A stretch of DNA of 32,406 nucleotides from positions 1-32,406 of IMG/VR virus record IMGVR_UViG_3300025131_010135, one strand, 5' to 3'. Made by a program: the position numbers and the translations under genes. A model generated the notes under the pieces. That model was not told where the DNA came from, made no database searches, and saw only the letters and a list, made by a program, of their open reading frames with translations. Shown piece by piece: positions 13,410-32,406 of this stretch; within the stretch, counting starts at the first letter, position 1, and every line of letters starts with the position of its first letter. The DNA comes from a virus.

Positions 13410-13434
13410 GATTTTTTAATATTTGTGCTATAAT
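13406..13434 (+). promoter_or_regulatory. Sigma70-like promoter with extended -10 before neuB
   Basis: TATAAT at 13429-13434 is a perfect -10 box with the extended-10 TGC just before it. TTAAGA at 13406-13411 matches the -35 TTGACA at 4 of 6 with a 17-base spacer. Transcription would be expected to begin 6-8 bases after the -10, at about 13440-13442, which is the start codon of the next gene. No ribosome site precedes that codon. The box also partly resembles a late promoter (ATAATATA). Confidence 0.5.
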
Positions 13435-13440
13435 ATATTC

Positions 13441-14133
13441 ATGGCAATTACAATTATTTCCGAAATTGGAATAAATCATAACGGCGACTTCCGGAAAATA
13501 GAAGAGCTTATACGTCAATCAAAAACCGGTGGTGCAGATTATGCAAAATTCCAGCTTTATGATTCCATCAGGGTTTTTGGAGATGAATCTAGAAAGCAAA
13601 ACGAGTTTACTTTTCAACAAGTTGAGCGAGTTAAGAAGATATGTGATCACTATCAGATTGAATTTTTTGCTTCTGTTTTCGATGAAGAAAAACTGGATTG
13701 GTGTGAAAAACTGGATGTTAATTTGTATAAAATAGCTAGCCGAACTGTTGTTAAGGAACCTGACTTGTGTAGGCAGATTATAGCAACAAATAAACCGGTT
13801 TATATATCTTTGGGCTTTTGGGAAGAACCCGGGTTGCCATTCGAGGCAAAAAACATAAAGTATTTAAATTGTATATCAAAATACCCAACAAGTATTTTAG
13901 ATTTTAAAAATTTTGAATATAATGATAATATTATAGGTCTAAGCGATCATTCTTATGGAATCTCATTTCCTTTGTTTAATATAGCTCAAGGGGCAAGGGT
14001 AATTGAAAAACATTTTACCCTCAATAAAGGCATGCCAGGAAATGATCATATTGGGTCAATGAATCTTAAAGAATTACGATTGCTTAGAGAATATGGAGAT
14101 CAAGTTGAAAGTATTGGGCGTAATATTAGCTAG
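13441..14133 (+). CDS. neuB: Sialic (nonulosonic) acid synthase, NeuB-like, lacking SAF domain
   Basis: NeuB enzymes condense phosphoenolpyruvate with a 6-carbon N-acyl amino sugar to make a nonulosonic acid. The 230-residue product keeps the TIM-barrel motifs: SEIGINHNGD (7-16), DYAKFQ (33-38), LYKIASR (95-101), LNCISKYPT (142-150), LSDHSYG (167-173), VIEKHFTL (187-194) and DHIGS (202-206). Metal-binding histidines and the catalytic-region Lys and Glu appear intact. Normal NeuB proteins are about 340 residues and end in an antifreeze-like SAF domain, which donates an Arg to the partner active site. That domain is absent, and the next gene begins 41 bases before this stop, so it is not simply displaced. 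The ATG at 13441 is fixed by the family N terminus. Confidence 0.9.
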   Translation: MAITIISEIGINHNGDFRKIEELIRQSKTGGADYAKFQLYDSIRVFGDESRKQNEFTFQQVERVKKICDHYQIEFFASVFDEEKLDWCEKLDVNLYKIASRTVVKEPDLCRQIIATNKPVYISLGFWEEPGLPFEAKNIKYLNCISKYPTSILDFKNFEYNDNIIGLSDHSYGISFPLFNIAQGARVIEKHFTLNKGMPGNDHIGSMNLKELRLLREYGDQVESIGRNIS

Positions 14134-14812
14134 AGGCGGCTCCAAAGGAGTCCCAAAAAAGAATATAAAAGAAATCAATGGAAAACCTTTGATCGCACAC
14201 ACAATAGATGCTGCCTTAAGATCTGAAGTCTTTGATCAATTAGTTGTTAGTACAGATTCGGAAGAAATTGCAAATGTAGCCGCAGACCATGGCGCCGAAG
14301 TCCCTTTTATGCGTCCAGATGAATTAGCACAAGATCATATCTGGTCTCGTGACGCTCTGAAGCATGCCGTGTTGGAGTCTGAAAAAGTTTACAACAATGT
14401 TTACGACTATGTAATTGAGTTACCTTGTATTGCTCCGCTTAGGAACGAAACACATATTAGAGAAGCGTACGAAAAATTAAGAGATAATGCTTGTGATAGT
14501 GTAACATCCTTTGTTCAAATGCAAGATAAGCACCCCGTTCGTATGAAAAGGATAATTGATGATAGGATTTATGATTTTTGCAGAGAATATCCTGAAGGCG
14601 AAGGAAGCAGAAGACAAGATTTAGAGCCGTGTTATATTAGGAACGGTGCCATATATGCAATGACAAGAGACTGTATCGTGGAAGAATTTTCAAGACACGG
14701 CAAAGTGTGTTTACCATATGTAATGAAAGAGTCAGAGTCTGTGAATATCGATACAATGTTAGATTTTAAATTAGCAGAAATTTTATTAAAAGAGAAAACA
14801 AATGAGAGTTAA
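14093..14812 (+). CDS. neuA: CMP-N-acylneuraminate cytidylyltransferase
   Basis: This enzyme activates a nonulosonic acid as CMP-sugar using CTP. The 239-residue product has the signature LARGGSKGVPKKN (12-24), VSTDSEEIA (52-60), RPDELAQD (74-81), SRRQDLEP (172-179), IRNGAIY (182-188) and ESVNIDTMLDF (215-225), all in the expected order and at full length. The ATG at 14093 lies inside neuB; a TTG at 14105 is an alternative start, but either choice overlaps. The 41-base overlap and the neighbouring GT42-like gene indicate a synthase, activation and transfer set. CMP-legionaminate and CMP-pseudaminate synthetases share these motifs, so the exact sugar is open. Confidence 0.95.
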   Translation: MEIKLKVLGVILARGGSKGVPKKNIKEINGKPLIAHTIDAALRSEVFDQLVVSTDSEEIANVAADHGAEVPFMRPDELAQDHIWSRDALKHAVLESEKVYNNVYDYVIELPCIAPLRNETHIREAYEKLRDNACDSVTSFVQMQDKHPVRMKRIIDDRIYDFCREYPEGEGSRRQDLEPCYIRNGAIYAMTRDCIVEEFSRHGKVCLPYVMKESESVNIDTMLDFKLAEILLKEKTNES

Positions 14813-19650: not shown

Positions 19651-19950
19651 ATGAATAAAACAGAGCTAGAAAAATATCTCAATGAAGCGATAGAAAATAT
19701 ACATGAGGACAGAAAGGTCACAGGAGATCTTCTAAAGGACCTCATGCAGCACATTGCACAAGGCCAGGTAGAACATACACGAGTCGGCCAAACAGCAGCA
19801 AAATATGTAGAAACCTTGCAACGCTCAAACGAACAGCTTGTTAAAATTGTAGCTCTTTTGCAAAAGAGAGATTCTAAAACAGACGGCCTATCAAGTCAAG
19901 ATAAACAGGAATTGTTTGATTTAATTCAAGGTGATCAAGAAGATGGCTAG
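19651..19950 (+). CDS. Hypothetical helical protein, 99 aa
   Basis: The ATG at 19651 follows AAGGG (19638-19642) by 8 bases. The product is almost entirely helix-forming residues with heptad-like spacing of Leu and Ile, for example LEKYLNEAIENI and LLKDLMQHIAQG. It may form a coiled coil. There are no cysteines, signal or membrane segments. It overlaps the hub gene start by 8 bases and so is probably a structural or chaperone partner of the baseplate module. The function is not recognised. Confidence 0.75.
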   Translation: MNKTELEKYLNEAIENIHEDRKVTGDLLKDLMQHIAQGQVEHTRVGQTAAKYVETLQRSNEQLVKIVALLQKRDSKTDGLSSQDKQELFDLIQGDQEDG

Positions 19951-21532
19951 TAAAACGCCGCAGGAATTGTTGGCTCAACAAGTCGCTTCTTTATCAAAAC
20001 ACCAATCATTAAATCCGGTAGAAAGTTCTGAATTTAACCAAACGTTTGATTCAGATTCGAGCTTCATTGGCGCAGCAAGAAGGGCTATAATCGACAATGC
20101 GAAAGACGATGTATTCGATTATATGGGCGATATCAAAGCTGTCGTTTTACACGCTTGGAGAGAAGACTCGACTTTATTGGGATATGATAAGAAAGTTGTT
20201 GTTCACGTTAAAGCACGCGTCCCCGGCCTGGATTTTGTACCTTTACCAGTTGGGTTGCCACTTAATAATGATCGCGAAGATAAATTGGCAGATTGGCCTG
20301 CTATAAATAGACATGATACTTTTGTTGCGAAAGAAGAATATTTACCTCTTCCTAGCCCTGGTGATATTATAGAAGTTTCTTTTGGAAACCCTAACCAAAG
20401 AAGAGACCCCGTGTATTTGGGGATATTATCAAAGAATAAAACCCCTGGCTCTTTCGGAAGCCCTCCAAGTCAGAATTTTCATTCCGGAGAATGCAAGGAA
20501 GAAAGAAATGAAAGTTTTGACCAAGAAACCAAGCCCACAGAAACACCAGAGGTTGAAGTCCCCGAAACCAAGCCCTCAAAAATTGAACCAATCCCACCCG
20601 ATAAAACCCCAAAGGTTGGGCTTTATGTGGGTTCTACAGCACATCGTATATATAAAGAAAGTTCAAGCAAGCACTCTGGAGTCTTTAAAAGACGTAAGGA
20701 TTATAGTTGGGTTTTAGATGTTGCTAAAGCGGGCATAGACTATCTCGATTATAAAGTTAAAGGTGGCACCAGAACTCAAATTCATTACACAAAGAAAATG
20801 TCTGGAGGAAGAGAAGTACCAGAAGAAGCAGTTTATGTGCGTGACCACGCCCGGGCCAACGGTTTTCCAAATTTTGAAGTACATTTTTGGAATGCTCCAA
20901 GATATTTCAAGGGCGATTCCCCACACAGTGTAAAAAATAGTGAGTTCCAAAAAACAATATTACCAAGAGTCATAAAAGACGCAGAAGAGATGGCGGAATT
21001 CATTAACCGCGCACAAGGCAAAATTTTAGATTTTCACTGGAATGTGGAAAGGCATGCATACGTATCCACAGGCTCCAATCGGAAAACCCTAAATACAATA
21101 ATTGCTACCACATGGGCTCAAACTTTTCGCTCTGCATGTAAATACCCTGTTAGATTGTGGTGGAATGGTTTTAGTCCCTTCATCCAGAGTTATGATACAG
21201 AAAAAGTATTTGCAGCTTTCGATATAATTCAGGGCCAACTCTGGCCAGGTAAACATAGACTAATGGATTTTCTTAGGGCACAAGGAAGCAAACTCCCTTC
21301 GCCCTCGGAGAAGAACTTTAGTGTTACTTATAGTGCGGGAAATTATGGAAATTTGGCAGCCAGAAAAAAGAAAATATCAGATATTGATAGTGCATTAATA
21401 GAAAACAGAGCTTCCATATGGGGCGCAGAGTTGTTTACTCTAAGTTCTTTCTTATACAAAGGTTATTATAATATCCCCTCCATTCCTCAGAGGGTAAAAG
21501 CTTTTAAAGATCAAACCGGTTGGGATGAATAA
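19943..21532 (+). CDS. Baseplate hub-like OB-fold protein with extra C-terminal domain
   Basis: The ATG at 19943 is preferred over a GTG at 19931. Residues about 58-165 resemble the gp5/VgrG OB fold: strands KVVVHVKARVPG and PLPSPGDIIEVSFGNP, and an exit strand DPVYLGIL. A Pro/Glu/Lys linker follows (about 166-224). Residues 225-529 form a second domain with alternating strands and helices (VGLYVGS, FEVHFWN, KILDFHWNVE, PVRLWWNGF, DIIQGQLW) that looks like a TIM barrel. DFHWNVE (363-369) offers acidic residues where a glycosidase would have them. In T4, gp5 carries a lysozyme; here a different hydrolase may be the cell-wall-cutting part of the hub. The OB call is moderate; the hydrolase is inference. 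Confidence 0.6.
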   Translation: MASKTPQELLAQQVASLSKHQSLNPVESSEFNQTFDSDSSFIGAARRAIIDNAKDDVFDYMGDIKAVVLHAWREDSTLLGYDKKVVVHVKARVPGLDFVPLPVGLPLNNDREDKLADWPAINRHDTFVAKEEYLPLPSPGDIIEVSFGNPNQRRDPVYLGILSKNKTPGSFGSPPSQNFHSGECKEERNESFDQETKPTETPEVEVPETKPSKIEPIPPDKTPKVGLYVGSTAHRIYKESSSKHSGVFKRRKDYSWVLDVAKAGIDYLDYKVKGGTRTQIHYTKKMSGGREVPEEAVYVRDHARANGFPNFEVHFWNAPRYFKGDSPHSVKNSEFQKTILPRVIKDAEEMAEFINRAQGKILDFHWNVERHAYVSTGSNRKTLNTIIATTWAQTFRSACKYPVRLWWNGFSPFIQSYDTEKVFAAFDIIQGQLWPGKHRLMDFLRAQGSKLPSPSEKNFSVTYSAGNYGNLAARKKKISDIDSALIENRASIWGAELFTLSSFLYKGYYNIPSIPQRVKAFKDQTGWDE

Positions 21533-21586: not shown

Positions 21587-22525
21587 ATGGCAGAGACAAC
21601 ACAAAACGTCGATTTAAGTGGGCTAGATTCAGAAGTTGCGAGAAAGAACGACAACGACCAACTGAAATACGCAGGAGTCAATGGGGATAGACTCATTGAA
21701 CCTGTACCGAGTTTTATCCAAACAGAATCTGAACATGTTATTAGTAATTCCAACAATGCTTGGATTGTTCTTGGCCGAGACCGCTGTGGTAGTAACCAAA
21801 CAGGTTACGGTGGTAGAGGCGATACTCAAGCAGCATCAGTCGATATTGTCTGCGGCCGCATGGCAAAATCTCCAAACGACAAAGCGTACGTTGATCCAGA
21901 CTTTAAAATCGATGCTGCAAGAGTTTATATTAGTCAAAAAACAGATATAGATGCAAACTTTGGCATCGCTGAGGGCGTCGTAGGTTCCAACCCGCCAATA
22001 CCCAGCCCTGATTCTAGGCCAATGTCTGGAATCGTGATGAAGGCAGACGGCGTTAGGTTATGCGCAAGAGACGGCGGCATAAAACTAGTTACCGGCTTAG
22101 ATTCTGTAAATTCGCAAGGTAAAGCTGTTTCTGGTGGAAATTATATTGGTGTCGATTTGATTGCCGGAAATGACGATAGAGACATGCAGCCATTAGTCAA
22201 GGGCGAAAACATGATGGCCTGTATGAAACAGATCAATGAAGATCTGAAGGATCTGGCAGGTCAAATTGACTTTGTTGTACAGGAAATAATGACTTTGCAA
22301 TTCGCATTAGCGCTTCATACACATATATCTTTCTTTCCAGGTGGTCCAACCACTCCGTCGCTTGATTTAATGCCAACAGCCATCACCGGAGTATTGAAAT
22401 TAGGGTTGGTTTCAAAAGTAAATATGGCAACGTTTTCTGTAAACCGCGCATCGTTTGAACACAAATTTTTAGAAGCAAACACAGGAGGCCTTTATATTTG
22501 TAGTGAATATAATCACACAAATTAG
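21587..22525 (+). CDS. Putative baseplate spike/structural protein with HxH motif
   Basis: GAAGGT at 21571-21576 precedes the ATG by 10 bases. The 312-residue product has short repetitive strands in its middle (ARVYISQKTD and GIVMKADGVRLCARDGGIKL, 111-166) that resemble a beta-helix or trimeric spike. HTH at 244-246 is followed by FFPGGPTTPS, as seen in metal-binding tips of phage spikes. A helical part lies at about 205-240. It sits right after the OB-fold hub gene and before the giant protein, where a central spike or hub extension is expected. I do not recognise a named family; a general virion structural role is likely. Confidence 0.5.
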   Translation: MAETTQNVDLSGLDSEVARKNDNDQLKYAGVNGDRLIEPVPSFIQTESEHVISNSNNAWIVLGRDRCGSNQTGYGGRGDTQAASVDIVCGRMAKSPNDKAYVDPDFKIDAARVYISQKTDIDANFGIAEGVVGSNPPIPSPDSRPMSGIVMKADGVRLCARDGGIKLVTGLDSVNSQGKAVSGGNYIGVDLIAGNDDRDMQPLVKGENMMACMKQINEDLKDLAGQIDFVVQEIMTLQFALALHTHISFFPGGPTTPSLDLMPTAITGVLKLGLVSKVNMATFSVNRASFEHKFLEANTGGLYICSEYNHTN

Positions 22526-22533
22526 GATTTTTT

Positions 22534-25500
22534 ATGTCAGCATCAAATTGGACAAAAAATAACGTAGGCGAAGTATTTAAAGACGCACAAGGTATGATGA
22601 GCGTTGTTATTCTCCGTGAGGCTCCAGGCGAAGATATGTCTCAACTAGCTCAAGATCTGGATTATATTGTTTTCAACGAGGGTAGTGTTGTTAAAGAAGG
22701 TGTAAGGGCGATTCTCGAACAACATGGCAAAGAATGGCCCGCAATGAACGTAGTATTGAGCCCGGCCAACTTAAATAACCAACTCGCCAAGTTCCCAGAA
22801 ATTGAAGCTTCTGCAAACGAAGCTTGGAAAGACATGGGCACTACCTGGGACTGGAATCGCCGCGGCGAAGGCAGCCAGATAAGACAGCTTCTTCATATCG
22901 CAGGGTTGCCACCAGGCGCACTTCCTAATTGGTCAAGATTCGGTAGCACAAAGGCCATCAAAGGTACTCGTCATTTAGACTGCGTAGGCCCGCATTTCGC
23001 CCAAGCCGGCGCCGTCTTGTTTAAAGTCTGCATTCACCCGAGTATTTTCAATCGCGAAGAAGCAGCTAATAATCCTAATGAGCCTGCACCCACCATCGCA
23101 ATCCAGGGAAAGACTTTTAAAGAGCGCACTCAAGAAATTTTACAAAAAGGACTCTCATCTTACAAAGAAATAGAGTTCAGTAACTACAGCGAACTTGAAA
23201 AACAATTGTTAGAAATTTCAGCGACTCTAAAGGAATATAAGAGAGAGCATGATAAATTACAAAAGGGTGTGAAAGATAAAAAAACCAAAAAGACATCTTA
23301 TAAACGCTTTGAAGGCCCAGTTGCAACAGATAAGTATCCTTATACAGAAGATGCAGAAAGACCTCTTGGAGAAGTTTATGGTACCTTAGATTTAGAAGAG
23401 CAATCCGACAGACTAGAAAAACTAGCCGAAAATATAAAAAAGCTTCTTGTAACAAACGGAATTGACCCGTCAGAAGATAAAATAGCAGTAGGCTTTTATC
23501 CAGTTCCCAAGGCGGCAAACCCTGCCACCTCGAACAAGGATGTTGAACCTGAGGTTGTAGGAACTCAGACCGGTGAATATGAACTTACAATTACTGCACA
23601 GCCAATACAATCTAATTCTTTCAATAAAATTACGGTGCGAAGTGAAAACCCAAAACAATACTCAAATAAATATAGCCGCTCCGCCGGCGAAACTTTGTGG
23701 GACATAACTTCATTTTATTTAGGCAACGGCACAAGATGGCAGGAAATTGTAGAATTAAATCAATCTACCTCGGTGTATAGAAAACGCGGCTGGCTATCAG
23801 CCGCAGAGATTTCTGCTATAACAAATAAAGATCAACTAACAGCGGCCGACCAAAAAAAACTTGATAAAGCAGAAAATCCAGAATTAAAATCAGGAGATGT
23901 GTTAAAAATACCAGTTTCATGGCTTGAGGAAATAGCCAATGATCTCGCTTGGTACAAAGCTCACGATACGGCTAAAGGGTCAATAATCGTTTACAGCCCT
24001 TCTTTAGTAGCTCCGCCAGCCCCACCTGAGATACCTTCTTATACTGATGATGGGGTTAGTTATATAGCAGCAGAAGACCCTTGGTTCGATTATAATAAAG
24101 ATTCGATTTACAAAACTTCTGTTGGCAAAGGTCAAATCGCTTATATAAGAAGATCAACCCCAGAATTTGAAAAAACCTTAAAAAGATATAAAAGTGCGAA
24201 AAGCAACCAAGAGAAAGCACAGTCTGGGAAAGATCCAGATCCAGAACAACTGTCTATGTATGAAAATGTGACTGAAAACACAAAAGCTGCGTTGAATAAA
24301 GTTGCAGCAAGTAACAGAGTATTTTTATGGCCAGGCTTTTTACCACTTGTATACTCTCCCGAAGCAATAGACTACAGAACAGTTCATTTTTTGACAAACA
24401 TGGACATTGTTATTCGCGAACCTGGAGTTGTAGGATCTTTAGCAAGGTTTTGCAGTGGTTCAAAGAAGCCGCCAAAATCAAAAAAGAAAATACGCGCATT
24501 TGTTAGAAAATATATTTATGACGCCCCTATCTTAGTTGATTTTGTTCCACGAGGCGTAGACGAAATAATTGGGTTTTATGAAACAAACGCTCAACCACCC
24601 CCAGCAGGTGCCACCTCCAAACCTAAAACAGAAAAAGAATTAAACACTTGGAACAAAATTACAAAAGATCCGATCACTAAAGAAATTTTATCTAAGAGAA
24701 ATGTGAAACTTAATTCTATAGCAGGGGATATGGTTTTTGCATCGATGCCAAGGTCCGTCAACAAAATTAATACTTTATCTGACGTTCATAAATATATCTT
24801 GGGAAGATTGAGTATTCCGCAAATGGCTGCAGAAATCTTAAAATGTCTTGGCTTGTCCATGTCAATTGACGATTTGATAGAAGCTCTCTGTGACGGCTTC
24901 CTGAGATCAATCGGAGCAGACCCAAACAAAATAGATGAATTTTTTGAGATCTTAAATAATGGCGACTTCAATGTCGATATTAAAGGTATAGAACTCTTTG
25001 ACACAGCCGATTTTGTACACAATGTACAACGCGATTTAGCAACGATGATTGCCTCCGGTGTTGATGATCCGTTTTATAATGCGATGATAAAACAAAATAT
25101 AGGGAATGCACAAGGCAAAAGAATAATATGTGAGATCATAATGGGTGCAATGTTTGCAATGGCCGATATGTTGGCTAATTTGGATAGCACTGTGGATCCA
25201 AGAGAAAGACCAGATAAAAAGTGTTCTATTAGGTTTTCATTGCCGAAAATTCCGCCTTTTGGAAGTATCATTGAACCTATATGGAAACAAATACAAAAAA
25301 GATTATATGCATGGCTGGAAGAACAAATCAGAGACGTTGCAAAAAATATTATAGAAAACATTATTGAATTCTGCGCCGAAGAAGATCCGGTCTTCGCAGC
25401 AGAGATTCCTCAAGTTATCGATGAAGAGGCTCTTGCCACAGCTTTAGCACCCCTAAACACAGAGCCTAGAGATTTCTTATCTCACCTATTATCAACCTTA

Positions 25501-28500
25501 ACCGCCGGCGAACTTTGCCAATTGGTTGAGGGCACCGCAAGAAAACCGCTTTTGTTACAAGTACGAAAATTTATGAAGTTTAATTATCCAGAAAGCTTTT
25601 ATCTTTTTTCAACCGACTACAAAATATTATCATTCTTTAAAAATCTTCAAGGTGTATTGGACTTAAGTTCTTGTAGAGGTGTGCCAAGAGAAATGGTCCT
25701 TGACGATTTATGTAAAGACGGCGAAACCCCTCGCGAGGCTGCACTACGAAGATCCTTGTTGGCTAAAGGTTTAACGCCAGAACAAGCCGAAGAACAGTTA
25801 GAAATACAAAGGCAAATTAAGAAAGACATAGTTAGTGATCTAGTAACTCAAATTGTGCCCTCAGATAAGCTTGCTGGAGCCATGGAAGCGCTGGACATTA
25901 ACAGTGTAATATCAGAATCTGAATCACTGAACAAATCAAACGGGATCGCCGTTTCTACTGTATTTGACGGTGTACAAAATAGTATATATCTAGAAATAGG
26001 CAACTTCATTCCAACAATTTTCACAGAGATTGATAAACTTAAAAAAGAGGGAAATTATGAATTTACAAAACTTCCTTTATTTGATGTCATTTATGCCTCG
26101 GCCCACCGACTAAATTGGGAGTTTAGAGTCAATAGTAATTCCCCAACAAATAGAAATAAAATCACCTTAATACCTCCAACGATAAACTACAAGCCAGGAG
26201 AATACAAAGTACTCTTTCCAGGTACTACTCAAGAAAAAGTCATTGATAAAAAAGGTCAGATGCAAATAGACTTTAAGATGAATAAAAAATTAGTTTATAG
26301 CGATGTGAAGACAAATGATCCTCTGAACACTGACGGAAAAGATGATATTTATATTTTCGACGTTTACAAAGGAGTCCAACCAAAATTTACAAGTGTAAAA
26401 GGATCTGAGGGTTTCGATATTAAAGATGAGGAACTGAAAGAAATTTTAGATGAGTATAGTCTTGTCTATAATCACCTCTCGAAAAGAATGGACATATTCG
26501 GCCAAATTTTAAAGAAGAAAGTCGAAGAACAATATGATTACACACTAGAGACCATTGAGGAAACTTCAACTTATTGCACTGATGGTTCAAATTGTTTAGA
26601 TTCTGAAACAACCGCGTTCGCGCAAGAAGCGTTAAGTTTACAATTAAAAACCGTAAACCAAGCACTAGAAACTTATGGCGGATATCCTGGAACTCAATAT
26701 TTGAGTTCTAATGTCGCGCCAACAGAGGGTGTACTTTGGTTTTTATCCGAATATATCTACGACGTAGCATACGTTTCGATTATAGACAGGATTATGGCTG
26801 TAATCGCAACCTCTGAATATTACGATGTATCAATGACTAGTCCATTGAGAAAACTTGACTTTTTAAAACAAAAATTTGGAGAGTTAAGTGATGTAAAAAA
26901 TAGCACAAACACAAAGATATCTGAATATATGGGAAATCATGATTTTATGACTGGTGAGCCGCCAACTTATATGGGGGAGGCAATATTTGAAGGCCTTGTG
27001 CAATCTATAATAAAGTCGTTAATGATACAAGATCTCATGAGAACAGTCTTCGTGTTTTCTAAATTTAAAATTGCCGACGCGTTCTCGGATCCAGTTTTGT
27101 CAGAATATCTAGCTGCAGCGTTTAAAAACGTATCTAATGGTCAAATTTATTCGGCATATAACGACTATATGACAAAGAAAGAAATTAGAGTCCGAGAAAA
27201 GTTAGAGTTGATCGGACCCTCATCGACACCGCCAGCAAAAACTTTAACTGAAGATGAGATTGAGGAAGAAATAAAAAACCAAGTATTTGGCGGCTTGGCG
27301 GATAATGCAGAAGAATATTTGTTAGAATTGATTGGGCAAACCGCAGAGCTTATGAAAGGAAAATTAATATCTGTTTTCAATTTAAAACTGAAGGGTATTG
27401 ATCAAAAATTCGAACTTGGTGAAAATGGCGTGACACAAGACTTCCAAACTATAGCGTTGGATGGTCAAACAACAAATGTTATGAATCATATACATGAATA
27501 TGTGATTGATGAGAACGGCAACGGCATAGCTAAAATGGCCTATCACCCCGAAAATCCAGAAATAGGACATGAACATGCAATAGAAAACTTCGCAGTAGCA
27601 GAGGCACAAAACGAAGCTCTTGGAGCCCATGCACATGAATTACAGTTAAAGGATTTCCCACAGCTAGCTGTTAACACGATCACGACTCTAAATTCAGATC
27701 TAAACAGTGAAACCTGGAGAAAATCGACAACTTCAAACACCCGGCTGAAACCAGCGGTAGGCACATCAACTTGCATGCAGGAGCATTTTAATGGCGGAAC
27801 ATTGATTCAAATACCGCCTGGTGTCACTTTGTCTCCTGGAACAAATTGGGATCCCGGTGAAAGGGTGTTAAAAAATCTTGATTCACCGGCGGAAAAAACA
27901 TTGAAAGCGTCATATGCAGCGCCAGCTGGAACTTATAAATGGAAGGAGAAATACGGCGGCTTCAGCGCCACACCCTTCGAAGTAACTGGCAAAGGTGGAT
28001 ATACCGACGGCAATATAGGGACAAAAAAAGCTATAAAACAAGCAAAGAAATGGCTTGAAGGTAAATTCAAGGGCCTTTGGAATCCTATGGGCCCAACATT
28101 TCCAAGTTATGATCCAGCTATTTGGGATGATTTAGCAAATGTCGACTGGGCAGGAGGTGAATACTCTTGGACGGAAGACAACCCATTTGAGCCTATGCTT
28201 GGAGTTGCTATGTGGTGGGAACCGTCTTCTTTATCGTTCGCCATCATAGGCACCAGTATTACTTCTCCTCCACCAACAGGATATAAAATTCGTGTTAGAC
28301 GAACTATCGAGTATGAAAAACGTGATAAAGGCCCTCGAAACAAAGAAGAATATCATATTTTTTCATCTACTAAAACCACCGGCGATGGTGTTCCCCAAGT
28401 ATTAGTCAAGAGCGGCGACGGCTTTTATTTTGGACAGCACTGGCAACCTAAGGAAGGAGACACTTGGGGCAAAGGTTATATTCATAGGGACGAAGGGCAG

Positions 28501-30816
28501 CCATACCCAATGATAAGGTTATCGGTACCGACCCGCGGAACTGGAGATATTGACATAGAAAAAGTCACCGAAATCAATTTTAAAATAAATGGCGAAAACA
28601 TACATCAAAAACCCAGAGTTATTCTTGTAGGGCAAACCTATGGCCGAGTATATGAACTTCAGGTCAATAGTGTTGAAGGATTACAAGAACATGAAAATGG
28701 GTTTTCTTATGGAAATGTTATAAATGTAACGATTCCAATTGCACAAACCAGCTATAAACTGGTATCCGGAAAACTTGAGTCCAAAGGACCATTACACCCC
28801 GAAGGCAAATCTTCCGTGCAGATTACAGATTCCTTAAACAATGCCCTCAAACTGCCATACGGCCATGGCCACGTTGATTTCATTAACGGCAAAAAAGTTG
28901 AAGATGATGTGTTTTACTTGATAGTAGAAAACCCAGAAAGTGGAGAAAGAGCAGCTGCACCAGTTCAATTTCATACGTTTACGCCATTTGGAAGAGGGCA
29001 CAACTCTGCTGATTCTTTAATTCATTATACTGGAGGTGGTTACGATACCACAGTCAGTGGTGTCTCCGTCGGCAAGTCGTATTACACCAGCCGCCTGGTG
29101 CCATCTTTCGAAGAGCGCTTCGGTGCCGGGATGTCACCTATTTGGAACACTGAACCAAGTGTTAATTTCCCATTCTTTTTGGGTCCAAAACCGGACACAG
29201 GTGTTTACGATTTCTTTCCTTTAACTATGTATGAGGACGAAAACGAACCCGCGATTGAGTATAAAGAGACAACAAAGAAAAACGCAGATGGCGAAGACGA
29301 AATAACCGAGGTACCTTATTCAACCCAGCAGGCCTGGCCAGTTGTTGATGTAGCTGACCCTCTTGGTATAAGGTCCTATGATAATGGTAGAGCAACAATT
29401 CTTGTGTCACCAAGATTAACAAGAACCGATTTATTTCCAAAGTTTAGAAGATCAGGCAACTTCGTAGTAGAAAAATATATAAAAATCAAGTTTAAGCCCT
29501 TTGGAGTATTAACAAGTATGGTGAGCACCGCTTTCGCATTGAAACTTTACCATCATTATGCCGGCGCCGGTCTCCAGACACAATTAGATAGGACCAGTCT
29601 TGGGTTAGGCGCCGCAGAGGAAACTCTGGGCGTCGATAAATTTGGGAATGTACCAGGTCTCACAGTCCGGGCATCTATACCTCAGAAATTATCCTCGAAC
29701 TCTTTTAAGAGATTACAGCAAGAACTACTGGGCTACAAAGATGAGATAAATCCTACAACTGGCTTGCCCACGGGCACAAAAACGGTTAAAGAGGGGGACG
29801 AACTTTATTTAAATTCGAATCCATTCGCCGGCCCCAATGGAATTCTAGATGAGGTCAGCTATGGACTAAGGGTGAGTTACGTTCTGCCGTTTGATATATC
29901 ACAAAATGTGGTAGACTATTCTCCAAACCAATCAAACTCCTTGATATTTAATAATTTAAAAGAAATGTTTTCTCCGACTCTTGACGAAAACCAATTTAAA
30001 AATACAGACTCTTTCAGACAACACTATATTTTAACCCAAGCTCAGAATAAAGTTTTCCACATGCAGGAATATCTTGGAGATACTAATACTTTAAATGCTG
30101 GTATGTATCAACTACCTGATATTTTTGAAGCCAAACCATGGGGCGGCTACGGATCACCGTCCTCAGTACAAGATGTGTTTTTATTCCCGCTCGTAGAAGT
30201 TGAAATGGACAAAGATGATCCAAGTTTTCCAACTTCTATAGTTACCTTCCAGGATCTCCTTGCGGGGTACCCCGACGACGACCCAGCAGGAATTTCTGCG
30301 TACGGCAAAGGGGTATACGAAGAACTTTATGTAAGGTTAAAAAGCAGCCCTGAATTTAAATTTCTTTTTGATTATGTGATGCCTACTAAAAGAGCTTTGG
30401 CGCTGGCTACTATTTATAATATGTTGGCTTTTGATGATGTTTTCCCAGACCCTTGTAAATTTCAAGCGTTGTTCAGTACTTCGACCAAGGTTCAGTCGTC
30501 TCTTATGGAGAAACTGGGGCAAGATTTAACCCTTCTTTCTGTAAGTTCCGATGCTGATTTCGATATTGCTGAATTAATAAGAGAAGCAAATGGCTTTAAA
30601 GTAAGTTGCTCACCCGGCCCCGATTCCGCGTTACTCAAAACAATAATGGGGCAACTACCCGAAGGCTTCGCAGATCTTCCAGCAATGCAAGCTATTCAGG
30701 CCGCAAAAGAGGAAACAGATGAAATGGTGGAAACAGCAAAGAACATGGTCGGTGGCCTTTTACCACACTCAAACCTTGGAAACCAGTTTGAAGGCTCAGA
30801 CGAAGAGGAGGAATAA
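22534..30816 (+). CDS. Giant virion protein (2760 aa) with LysM domain and HxH cluster
   Basis: An AGGA site at 22524-22527 precedes the ATG. The 8.3 kb frame is uninterrupted. Visible parts are: an N-terminal domain (1 to about 190); a Lys/Glu-rich probable coiled coil (194-262); a LysM domain (about 383-463) starting SAGETLWDIT and ending SGDVLKIPVSW, with an insertion of about 35 residues; and an HxH cluster at HIH (1652-1654), HEH (1679-1681) and HAH (1699-1701), typical of metal-binding tail proteins. A Trp-rich segment (1840-1895) comes next, then a long strand-rich region and an acidic C terminus ending in EEEE. The position between hub and gp25 genes indicates a baseplate or tail protein. 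LysM would bind peptidoglycan. It may fuse several T4 baseplate functions; exact role unknown. Confidence 0.7.
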   Translation: MSASNWTKNNVGEVFKDAQGMMSVVILREAPGEDMSQLAQDLDYIVFNEGSVVKEGVRAILEQHGKEWPAMNVVLSPANLNNQLAKFPEIEASANEAWKDMGTTWDWNRRGEGSQIRQLLHIAGLPPGALPNWSRFGSTKAIKGTRHLDCVGPHFAQAGAVLFKVCIHPSIFNREEAANNPNEPAPTIAIQGKTFKERTQEILQKGLSSYKEIEFSNYSELEKQLLEISATLKEYKREHDKLQKGVKDKKTKKTSYKRFEGPVATDKYPYTEDAERPLGEVYGTLDLEEQSDRLEKLAENIKKLLVTNGIDPSEDKIAVGFYPVPKAANPATSNKDVEPEVVGTQTGEYELTITAQPIQSNSFNKITVRSENPKQYSNKYSRSAGETLWDITSFYLGNGTRWQEIVELNQSTSVYRKRGWLSAAEISAITNKDQLTAADQKKLDKAENPELKSGDVLKIPVSWLEEIANDLAWYKAHDTAKGSIIVYSPSLVAPPAPPEIPSYTDDGVSYIAAEDPWFDYNKDSIYKTSVGKGQIAYIRRSTPEFEKTLKRYKSAKSNQEKAQSGKDPDPEQLSMYENVTENTKAALNKVAASNRVFLWPGFLPLVYSPEAIDYRTVHFLTNMDIVIREPGVVGSLARFCSGSKKPPKSKKKIRAFVRKYIYDAPILVDFVPRGVDEIIGFYETNAQPPPAGATSKPKTEKELNTWNKITKDPITKEILSKRNVKLNSIAGDMVFASMPRSVNKINTLSDVHKYILGRLSIPQMAAEILKCLGLSMSIDDLIEALCDGFLRSIGADPNKIDEFFEILNNGDFNVDIKGIELFDTADFVHNVQRDLATMIASGVDDPFYNAMIKQNIGNAQGKRIICEIIMGAMFAMADMLANLDSTVDPRERPDKKCSIRFSLPKIPPFGSIIEPIWKQIQKRLYAWLEEQIRDVAKNIIENIIEFCAEEDPVFAAEIPQVIDEEALATALAPLNTEPRDFLSHLLSTLTAGELCQLVEGTARKPLLLQVRKFMKFNYPESFYLFSTDYKILSFFKNLQGVLDLSSCRGVPREMVLDDLCKDGETPREAALRRSLLAKGLTPEQAEEQLEIQRQIKKDIVSDLVTQIVPSDKLAGAMEALDINSVISESESLNKSNGIAVSTVFDGVQNSIYLEIGNFIPTIFTEIDKLKKEGNYEFTKLPLFDVIYASAHRLNWEFRVNSNSPTNRNKITLIPPTINYKPGEYKVLFPGTTQEKVIDKKGQMQIDFKMNKKLVYSDVKTNDPLNTDGKDDIYIFDVYKGVQPKFTSVKGSEGFDIKDEELKEILDEYSLVYNHLSKRMDIFGQILKKKVEEQYDYTLETIEETSTYCTDGSNCLDSETTAFAQEALSLQLKTVNQALETYGGYPGTQYLSSNVAPTEGVLWFLSEYIYDVAYVSIIDRIMAVIATSEYYDVSMTSPLRKLDFLKQKFGELSDVKNSTNTKISEYMGNHDFMTGEPPTYMGEAIFEGLVQSIIKSLMIQDLMRTVFVFSKFKIADAFSDPVLSEYLAAAFKNVSNGQIYSAYNDYMTKKEIRVREKLELIGPSSTPPAKTLTEDEIEEEIKNQVFGGLADNAEEYLLELIGQTAELMKGKLISVFNLKLKGIDQKFELGENGVTQDFQTIALDGQTTNVMNHIHEYVIDENGNGIAKMAYHPENPEIGHEHAIENFAVAEAQNEALGAHAHELQLKDFPQLAVNTITTLNSDLNSETWRKSTTSNTRLKPAVGTSTCMQEHFNGGTLIQIPPGVTLSPGTNWDPGERVLKNLDSPAEKTLKASYAAPAGTYKWKEKYGGFSATPFEVTGKGGYTDGNIGTKKAIKQAKKWLEGKFKGLWNPMGPTFPSYDPAIWDDLANVDWAGGEYSWTEDNPFEPMLGVAMWWEPSSLSFAIIGTSITSPPPTGYKIRVRRTIEYEKRDKGPRNKEEYHIFSSTKTTGDGVPQVLVKSGDGFYFGQHWQPKEGDTWGKGYIHRDEGQPYPMIRLSVPTRGTGDIDIEKVTEINFKINGENIHQKPRVILVGQTYGRVYELQVNSVEGLQEHENGFSYGNVINVTIPIAQTSYKLVSGKLESKGPLHPEGKSSVQITDSLNNALKLPYGHGHVDFINGKKVEDDVFYLIVENPESGERAAAPVQFHTFTPFGRGHNSADSLIHYTGGGYDTTVSGVSVGKSYYTSRLVPSFEERFGAGMSPIWNTEPSVNFPFFLGPKPDTGVYDFFPLTMYEDENEPAIEYKETTKKNADGEDEITEVPYSTQQAWPVVDVADPLGIRSYDNGRATILVSPRLTRTDLFPKFRRSGNFVVEKYIKIKFKPFGVLTSMVSTAFALKLYHHYAGAGLQTQLDRTSLGLGAAEETLGVDKFGNVPGLTVRASIPQKLSSNSFKRLQQELLGYKDEINPTTGLPTGTKTVKEGDELYLNSNPFAGPNGILDEVSYGLRVSYVLPFDISQNVVDYSPNQSNSLIFNNLKEMFSPTLDENQFKNTDSFRQHYILTQAQNKVFHMQEYLGDTNTLNAGMYQLPDIFEAKPWGGYGSPSSVQDVFLFPLVEVEMDKDDPSFPTSIVTFQDLLAGYPDDDPAGISAYGKGVYEELYVRLKSSPEFKFLFDYVMPTKRALALATIYNMLAFDDVFPDPCKFQALFSTSTKVQSSLMEKLGQDLTLLSVSSDADFDIAELIREANGFKVSCSPGPDSALLKTIMGQLPEGFADLPAMQAIQAAKEETDEMVETAKNMVGGLLPHSNLGNQFEGSDEEEE

Positions 30817-30819
30817 AAA

Positions 30820-31206
30820 ATGGCAGGAATATCAGTTAAATTACCATTATCAGTAAATGACGCAGATGGTCATTATACTTTAAATAAAACTTTTATGGAA
30901 GTTACAAAACAGAATTTTAAGAATTTAATTTTAACAATCCCCGGGGAAAGGATTATGAATCCTGACTTTGGTGTAGGAATAGCTCAGTATTTGTTTGAGC
31001 AAGACGTGGAAGAGACCAGGGAGATGATTACAGCGAAGATCCACGAACAGGTTCAGATCTATATGCCGCACGTTATAATACAAGAAATATCATTTTCGAG
31101 CGTCGAACAAAGCAGAGAAATTGGCTCACATGTTTTGTCCGTTGCTATAACATATGCTGTAACGCCTTTAAATGAAACAGATATTTTAGATATAAAAATA
31201 GGATAA
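30820..31206 (+). CDS. 25: Baseplate wedge protein gp25
   Basis: A strong ribosome site (AGAGGAGGAA, 30804-30813) leads to the ATG at 30820. The 128-residue product has the gp25/GPW signature: a central FKNLILTIPGERIMNPDFGVGI (34-55) and then QYLFEQD, followed by the helix EETREMITAKIHEQV and strand IIIQEISF type ends. In T4-like phages gp25 forms part of the inner baseplate wedge near the hub and helps trigger sheath assembly. Related proteins occur in type VI secretion (TssE). The next gene is gp6, its structural partner, as in T4. The assignment is secure. Confidence 0.93.
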   Translation: MAGISVKLPLSVNDADGHYTLNKTFMEVTKQNFKNLILTIPGERIMNPDFGVGIAQYLFEQDVEETREMITAKIHEQVQIYMPHVIIQEISFSSVEQSREIGSHVLSVAITYAVTPLNETDILDIKIG

Positions 31207-31231: not shown

Positions 31232-32406
31232 ATGGCTAAGAAAACCCCGCCAATAAAATATACGAGCAGAGATTTCGATTCAATCAAGAGAGATCTCGTC
31301 GAATATGCAAAAAGATATTACCCAGATACGTACAAAGACTTTAGTGAAGCATCGTTCGGAGCGATGATGTTAGATATGACAGCATATGTTGGCGATATTT
31401 TATCTTTCTATTTAGATTATCAAGCAAACGAGGGCTTTTTACAAACTGCTACGGAATACGATAACATAGTAAAAATGGCTAAGCAGATGGGGTACAAATT
31501 CAAATCTACAGGTTCCTCAACTGGTATAATTTCTCTTTTTGTCACGGTCCCTGCGACCAACGCCGGAACACCGGATACAAGGTATATGCCAATTTTAAAA
31601 AAAGGTTCTGTATTTGCTTCTTCTGAGGGCGCCTCTTTCGTATTAATCGATGACGTCGATTTTTCCGATTCAGACAACGAAGTAGTGGTTTCAACTACGA
31701 ATGAGTTTGGAAATCCAACTTTTTATGCAGTCAGGGCCCATGGGAGAGTTGTATCGGGTATTTCAAACACGGAAGTTAAAACCGTCGGAGAATTTCAGAA
31801 ATTTAGAAGAATCAAATTAGACTCCAGAAACATAACAGAAGTAATCTCTGTCTTAGACACAGAGGGACATGAGTATTATGAAGTTGAACATCTCTCTCAA
31901 AACGTTGTTTATTTACCAGTTAAGAATAGAGCTACGGACGCCTCAAAGGTACCAGAATTGATCAAACCTTTTGTTGTCCCCAGGAGGTTTACAGTTGAAA
32001 ATACTAGACTTGCAACGTTTTTGCAATTTGGTTATGGCTCGACATCTGAGTTAACAAATGATTCTCTGGTTGACCCAGCACAAGTTGTTCTGAATATCCA
32101 CGGTAGAGAACATGTAACTGATACAAGCTTTGACCCAACCAAGTTAACAACAACAGATAAATTTGGAGTTTCTCCAACAAACACAACACTGACAATCAGT
32201 TATAGAGTGAACGACTCTGACAACGTAAATGTTGCGGCAGAAGCATTGACAAGTGTTATTTCTCCTATACTTCAATTCGAAAATCAATCAGATTTGACCG
32301 TTGCTAATATGGACATTGTACAAAGTAGTCTGGAATGCACAAACGAGGAGCCAATTATTGGCGACGTACAGCTTCCCGATACGCAGGAATTAAAACAGAG
32401 AATACG
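31232..32406 (+). CDS. 6: Baseplate wedge protein gp6-like (3' end outside window)
   Basis: The ATG at 31232 follows AAGAGG (31218-31223) and the frame is open for 391 codons to the right edge. The N terminus, KYTSRDFDSIKRDLVEYAKRYYP followed by DFSEASFGAMMLDMTAYVGD and LSFYLDYQANEGFL, is typical of gp6/J-type baseplate wedge proteins. T4 gp6 is about 660 residues, so a large C-terminal part is missing here only because the window ends. In the baseplate it dimerises to form the inner ring together with gp25 and gp53. The strand-rich middle (about 85-330) fits the wing domain. The start lies 25 bases after the gp25 stop. Confidence 0.88.
   Translation, partial: MAKKTPPIKYTSRDFDSIKRDLVEYAKRYYPDTYKDFSEASFGAMMLDMTAYVGDILSFYLDYQANEGFLQTATEYDNIVKMAKQMGYKFKSTGSSTGIISLFVTVPATNAGTPDTRYMPILKKGSVFASSEGASFVLIDDVDFSDSDNEVVVSTTNEFGNPTFYAVRAHGRVVSGISNTEVKTVGEFQKFRRIKLDSRNITEVISVLDTEGHEYYEVEHLSQNVVYLPVKNRATDASKVPELIKPFVVPRRFTVENTRLATFLQFGYGSTSELTNDSLVDPAQVVLNIHGREHVTDTSFDPTKLTTTDKFGVSPTNTTLTISYRVNDSDNVNVAAEALTSVISPILQFENQSDLTVANMDIVQSSLECTNEEPIIGDVQLPDTQELKQRI

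Follow-up and report, generated by a model that had tools for sequence, protein, structure and literature searches.

A giant modular protein encoded beside baseplate wedge genes represents an undescribed family in uncultured T4-related phages

A 2760-residue protein encoded in a 32,406-base IMG/VR virus fragment (the window, by which we mean the whole stretch of DNA analyzed) belongs, judging from sequence comparison and gene order, to a large, undescribed family that is known here from uncultured viruses only. We suggest, with somewhat more confidence than doubt, that this giant forms part of the structure of the distal contractile tail in a large, uncultured group of phages related to T4, and that it bears modules which engage the envelope. 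The label "tail protein" derives from its neighbors and from the context of its family, and we infer that the protein would be present in the virion, located at the baseplate and able to bind the envelope.

Results

The giant gene and its neighbors

The window, which ends inside gp6, carries in order PhoH, a glycan-synthesis island, a weak late-sigma-like gene, the genes for a 533-residue and a 312-residue protein, the giant gene, gp25 and gp6 (Table 1). The giant reading frame begins with ATG and contains no internal stop, whereas stop-free runs reached 212 codons at most when the window was shuffled 60 times, which confirms the claim of an earlier note on this DNA that an 8.3-kb gene encodes one protein of this size. 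Family members are under purifying selection, with synonymous changes far exceeding non-synonymous ones in related pairs of giants: one pair had dS of 1.24 and dN of 0.18, and three further pairs had pS of 0.76–0.79 and pN of 0.13–0.22. Because the AGGAGG of gp25 lies within the last codons of the giant gene and gp25 starts at 30820, just past the giant's stop, both proteins are probably made from a single late transcript. Residues 201–300 of the giant are highly charged, which is consistent with a coiled coil.

The 312-residue protein is 34–49% identical across the lineage. Its reading as a gp5-type spike gained no statistical support from a profile comparison with gp5-like proteins, which was not significant, so that motif and position are what remains for it. 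The 533-residue protein gave no family match. The slot that it occupies, before the 312-residue gene, is filled by differing cell-wall-type enzymes across lineages: a peptidase-domain protein in L021 (1978–3141), a VanY-like protein, by reading only, in L013 (2284–5220), and the window's own version at 19931–21532.

Table 1. Features of the window discussed in the text (aa, residues of the giant).
Feature	Position	Strand	Remarks
533-aa protein upstream of the 312-aa gene	19931..21532	+	Equivalent slot in L021 holds a peptidase-domain protein
312-aa conserved partner protein	21587..22525	+	Spike-like by motif and position only
Giant ORF, 2760 aa	22534..30816	+	Homologs L052, L053, L054 (=L022); family of 77
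Block b1 (about aa 283–323)	23380..23502	+	30/77 giants; position read from consensus
LysM with insert (aa 362–470)	23617..23943	+	phrog_380; window's clade only, 4/77 giants
Block b2 (aa 615–796)	24376..24921	+	Predicted helical; 75/77 giants
Block b3 (aa 859–1160)	25108..26013	+	Predicted helical; LTxxELxxLLxG; 75/77 giants
Block b4 (aa 1382–1570)	26677..27243	+	Predicted helical; 66/77 giants
HxH module (aa 1640–1710)	27451..27663	+	Three HxH pairs and DxxGNG loop; conserved in clade
Trp-rich segment (aa 1801–1900)	27934..28233	+	By Trp count; clade-specific
Strand-rich region (aa 1980–2340)	28471..29553	+	Clade-specific; low-confidence model
Block b5 (aa 2363–2540)	29620..30153	+	GLRxSYVxP motif; 30/77 giants
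Block b6 (aa 2548–2661)	30175..30516	+	FxYxxPxxR motif; 55/77 giants
gp25-like wedge protein	30820..31206	+	Pfam GPW_gp25, E 2e-11; directly after giant
gp6-like wedge protein	31232..32404	+	phrog_219, E 1e-16; cut by window end

A family defined by gene order

Direct searches of GenBank phages and IMG/VR with the window's giant returned no homolog, and an alignment-based scan with it matched L022 alone. The giants of the window, L013, L024, L059, L100 and L021 likewise had no homolog among 50,697 GenBank phage records; gp6, used as a positive control, matched 362 phage records. A gp6 search yielded 24 IMG/VR loci, and wherever the upstream flank sufficed, gp25 was again preceded by a very large gene. 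With the 312-residue protein as bait, at least 592 IMG/VR relatives were found (one of the matches lies on a bacterial MAG contig), and 80 loci were fetched. Giants were selected by position, as the first open reading frame of at least 300 residues after the 312-residue gene, without using similarity to the giant. That frame was giant in nearly all of the 80 loci, and the frames ending inside their locus had a median length of 2202 and a maximum of 3279 residues. Among the 71 loci whose flank was long enough for the test, gp25 and gp6 come next in 68; in the other three the giant is encoded by two genes, and the conserved blocks are distributed over both. The window's giant has all blocks in collinear order, the 312-residue protein upstream, and gp25 and gp6 downstream, and it shares 39.5% identity with the giant of L052, 34–35% with that of L053 and 34–39% with that of L022.

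The two-gene giants are split after b3 in L065 (10516–16557) and L093 (10920–16864) and between b2 and b3 in L111 (1286–7170). Sequencing error was considered and set aside for L065 and L093, which are 56% identical; at least that split looks real, since it falls at the same site in both, with the genes abutting or overlapping. Because a few relatives carry the giant as two adjacent genes, gene arrangement indicates that parts of the giant have fused with or split from one another.

Conserved blocks and a helical core

An iterative HMM, seeded by the window's giant and its three closest relatives, was run over 77 giants (75 clusters at 80% identity, the HMM counts including some partial and near-identical proteins). 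Up to six blocks per giant were found, collinear in every protein, and b2 and b3 are shared by 75 of the 77 giants even though these were picked without regard to homology. Variation in length falls between the blocks: the distance from b4 to b6 ranges from 100 to 1098 residues, and that from the N-terminus to b2 from 129 to 1187.

The core (residues 590–1580, 51 sequences) is modeled as almost all helical, with a less certain strand region near residues 1210–1290 (mean pLDDT 69.6, pTM 0.47). Pfam, PHROG and PDB gave no match to it. When the model was compared with the PDB, the best Foldseek hit had an E of 0.74 and VIA-align reached Z of at most 5.6, the background level for helical models, and PDB sequence profiles for the core, the C-terminal half and the 312-residue protein revealed nothing convincing. 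The predicted core did match A0A1B1IUZ9 (E 6.5e-6) and A0A516MAR9 (E 2e-3) in BFVD with probability 1.00; both are structurally like it, but both are unnamed viral proteins.

Modules that turn over between lineages

Four parts of the giant are confined to the window's clade, namely the LysM and residues 480–600, 1160–1341 and 1710–2340. The LysM matches the PHROG endolysin family phrog_380 over residues 363–462 (E 3e-7). Against Pfam LysM (PF01476), the window's giant scores 12.4 bits, under the cut-off of 20.9, and its clade relative L053 scores 29.8 bits, over it. In each of the four clade members (the window, L052, L053 and L022), an insert separates the second helix of the domain from its last strand, which bears out the interrupted LysM described in the earlier note. 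Other lineages carry three PG_binding_1 domains between b2 and b3 (L127, E 2e-43) or an SH3_3 domain before b2 (L081, over cut-off), and three kinds of peptidoglycan-type domain are thus found across lineages. Most of the family is missing a recognizable cell-wall domain, with about two of 19 sampled giants having one.

The proposed HxH cluster and Trp-rich segment are both upheld. Three HxH pairs, at residues 1652, 1679 and 1699, are kept in the window's clade, in the pattern HxHxYx(I/V)DxxGNG followed by two more HxH pairs, and residues 1801–1900 hold eight Trp, compared with about one per 100 elsewhere in the giant. As for the strand-rich region, strands are predicted around residues 2010–2150 in a low-confidence model only, the C-terminal half of the giant being poorly modeled (mean pLDDT 48.6).

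In the family, the HxH module lies mostly between b4 and b6, and after b6 in L074. It was found in 117 IMG/VR stretches, and the 80 that were read comprised 31 family giants and about 49 other phage reading frames. Many unrelated phage proteins, from 72 to more than 2000 residues long, contain this 55-residue HxH/GNG module (L140–L219), which may be an unnamed mobile metal-binding domain. HxH pairs are iron-binding in T4 gp37 and have been reported for marine phage fibers (PMC11705849), and the giant resembles these in having such pairs in a phage tail-region protein; unlike gp37-type fibers, for which the metal would be held by HxH pairs from three chains, it has three pairs and a GNG loop packed into 55 residues of a single chain.

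Separate baseplate, hub and tape measure genes in a relative

On G001, the 185-kb contig of relative L022, sheath and tube genes were identified by reading, and profile matches point to a gp26-like protein (phrog_150, E 6e-21) and to a tape measure (phrog_167, E 4e-5), all as separate genes. A tube-initiator-like 299-residue gene was recognized by reading, and a hub-like 1066-residue gene, which had no profile match, by reading and position only. Between these two lies a small gp53-like LysM gene, and the same holds for G009. The gp53-like, hub-like and tape measure genes are known as separate genes from relatives only, the window being a fragment. After gp6, G001 encodes proteins of 667 and 4138 residues related to proteins in the same position in Flavobacterium phage immuto and Microcystis phage Mel-JY01. 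The larger one, a second giant at 115229–127645 (locus L133), is partly similar to the 1265- and 1336-residue proteins of immuto and Mel-JY01. Descent of the giant from the small genes that precede gp25 in immuto or Mel-JY01 was considered and dropped, because similarity was missing. The same contig has at 36908–38476 a reading frame that reads as a GroEL-type chaperonin.

In profile comparison, T4 gp53, gp5–gp12, gp27 and gp29 showed no significant similarity to the giants, nor did the giants match tape measure profiles. The T4 proteins that the earlier note names for comparison, gp7, gp10, gp53 and gp27, are among these, and the core has no PDB fold match; a distant kinship with gp6, gp7 or gp10 would be compatible with both results. 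Cyanophage S-SM2 gp7 (about 4150 residues) is likewise a very large protein in the gp25–gp6 cluster, but giants of that type lie downstream of gp6, whereas those of the window's family lie upstream of gp25; G001 has one at each site (2775 and 4138 residues).

Discussion

The ancestral part of the giant would be a mostly helical scaffold, made up of blocks b2, b3, b4 and b6, which may assemble with the products of its neighbors, the spike-like 312-residue protein and the gp25/gp6 wedge. In a fast-evolving family, the loops between blocks would accept extra modules, and those of the window's clade (the LysM, the HxH module and the strand-rich region) might be displayed in such a way that the baseplate, at about the time of adsorption and contraction, could engage peptidoglycan or surface glycans. 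Lineages differ in the modules that they carry, and such turnover fits what is expected of host-facing parts.

The idea that the LysM holds the tail to peptidoglycan gains indirect support, because other lineages carry unrelated peptidoglycan-type domains on the same scaffold and a relative encodes a gp53-like LysM protein separately. We regard the giant's LysM as probably an additional domain, since the hub-like, tape measure, tube-initiator-like and gp53-like LysM genes are all separate on the relative's contig. It is more likely to be a binding module than a structural gp53 part, because that relative has the structural gp53-type part separately.

LysM folds of the gp53/BW4 type are, however, often purely structural in baseplates. 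Published descriptions present them as conserved in all contractile baseplates and, in several phages, as joined to other proteins of the baseplate (PMC10811340, PMC10966104), and a LysM fold in a contractile baseplate gene cluster is common to T4 gp53/BW4, PA0627, the Milano BCP C-terminus, A-1(L) gp16 and the window's giant. The giant might be read as a fused T4-type wedge, uniting gp53, gp7 and gp10, in which the LysM would be the structural gp53/BW4 lock of wedge, hub and tube initiator. This reading could also draw on phrog_975, which combines LysM-like and gp25-like parts that are each weakly matched in the window, and on the three relatives in which the giant is two genes. We nevertheless consider it unlikely. 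A gp53/BW4 counterpart would have its LysM throughout the family and be the sole wedge protein of that kind in its phage, whereas LysM is found in only four of the 77 giants, is clade-specific and contains an insert, and G001 and G009 have a gp53-like LysM gene of their own, between the tube-initiator-like and hub-like genes. The gp7-position genes are separate too and are related to their counterparts in immuto and Mel-JY01, and T4 gp6–gp12 and gp53 have no similarity to the giants. The earlier view of a fused baseplate machine that replaces several T4 genes finds no support in G001, where the hub-like, tube-initiator-like, gp53-like, gp26-like, tape measure, gp25, gp6 and gp7-position genes are all separate; what stands of it is a giant modular protein with a LysM in a baseplate gene cluster.

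Ejected proteins are commonly large, helical and variable, a character that the giant shares, and its peptidoglycan-type domains would suit a role in crossing the cell wall. It could thus be an internal virion protein of the head or tail lumen that is released into the wall, with its wall-binding domains aiding passage. We also give this a low probability, for its position always adjoins baseplate genes and a relative has a separate tape measure. That the giant is a tail-assembly scaffold or chaperone, absent from mature virions, seems slightly less probable still: T4 baseplate assembly proteins such as gp51 are encoded among baseplate genes, and the helical core has no known fold, but a pure scaffold would hardly be expected to carry lineage-specific inserts with wall-type domains and an HxH module.

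We therefore return to a structural protein of the distal tail as the reading that we prefer. The family appears to be represented on hundreds of IMG/VR phage contigs (at least 592 with the partner gene), yet for the members tested its backbone was undetectable in Pfam, PHROGs, PDB and 50,697 GenBank phage records. Tentatively, and with rather more reserve, we propose that abundant, undescribed contractile-tailed phages have one further baseplate component that is universal among them: a giant helical scaffold whose envelope-binding modules are interchangeable, and for which no contractile injection system characterized so far has a counterpart. Should the giant indeed belong to the baseplate, its family would show that a very large and variable scaffold can be added to the contractile tail module, and would offer ready natural experiments in which one backbone is combined with different wall-binding modules.

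A large aquatic phage lineage described previously (PMC12619734) has gp25, gp6, PhoH and several glycosyltransferase genes in common with the window and could be the same group. At 13423–14812, the window encodes a NeuB-family protein and a CMP-sugar-type cytidylyltransferase, in an island that also holds epimerase, UDP-glucose dehydrogenase and glycosyltransferase genes and is likely a nonulosonic-acid pathway, judging from these gene assignments. By reading, G001 has a comparable glycan island at the same place.
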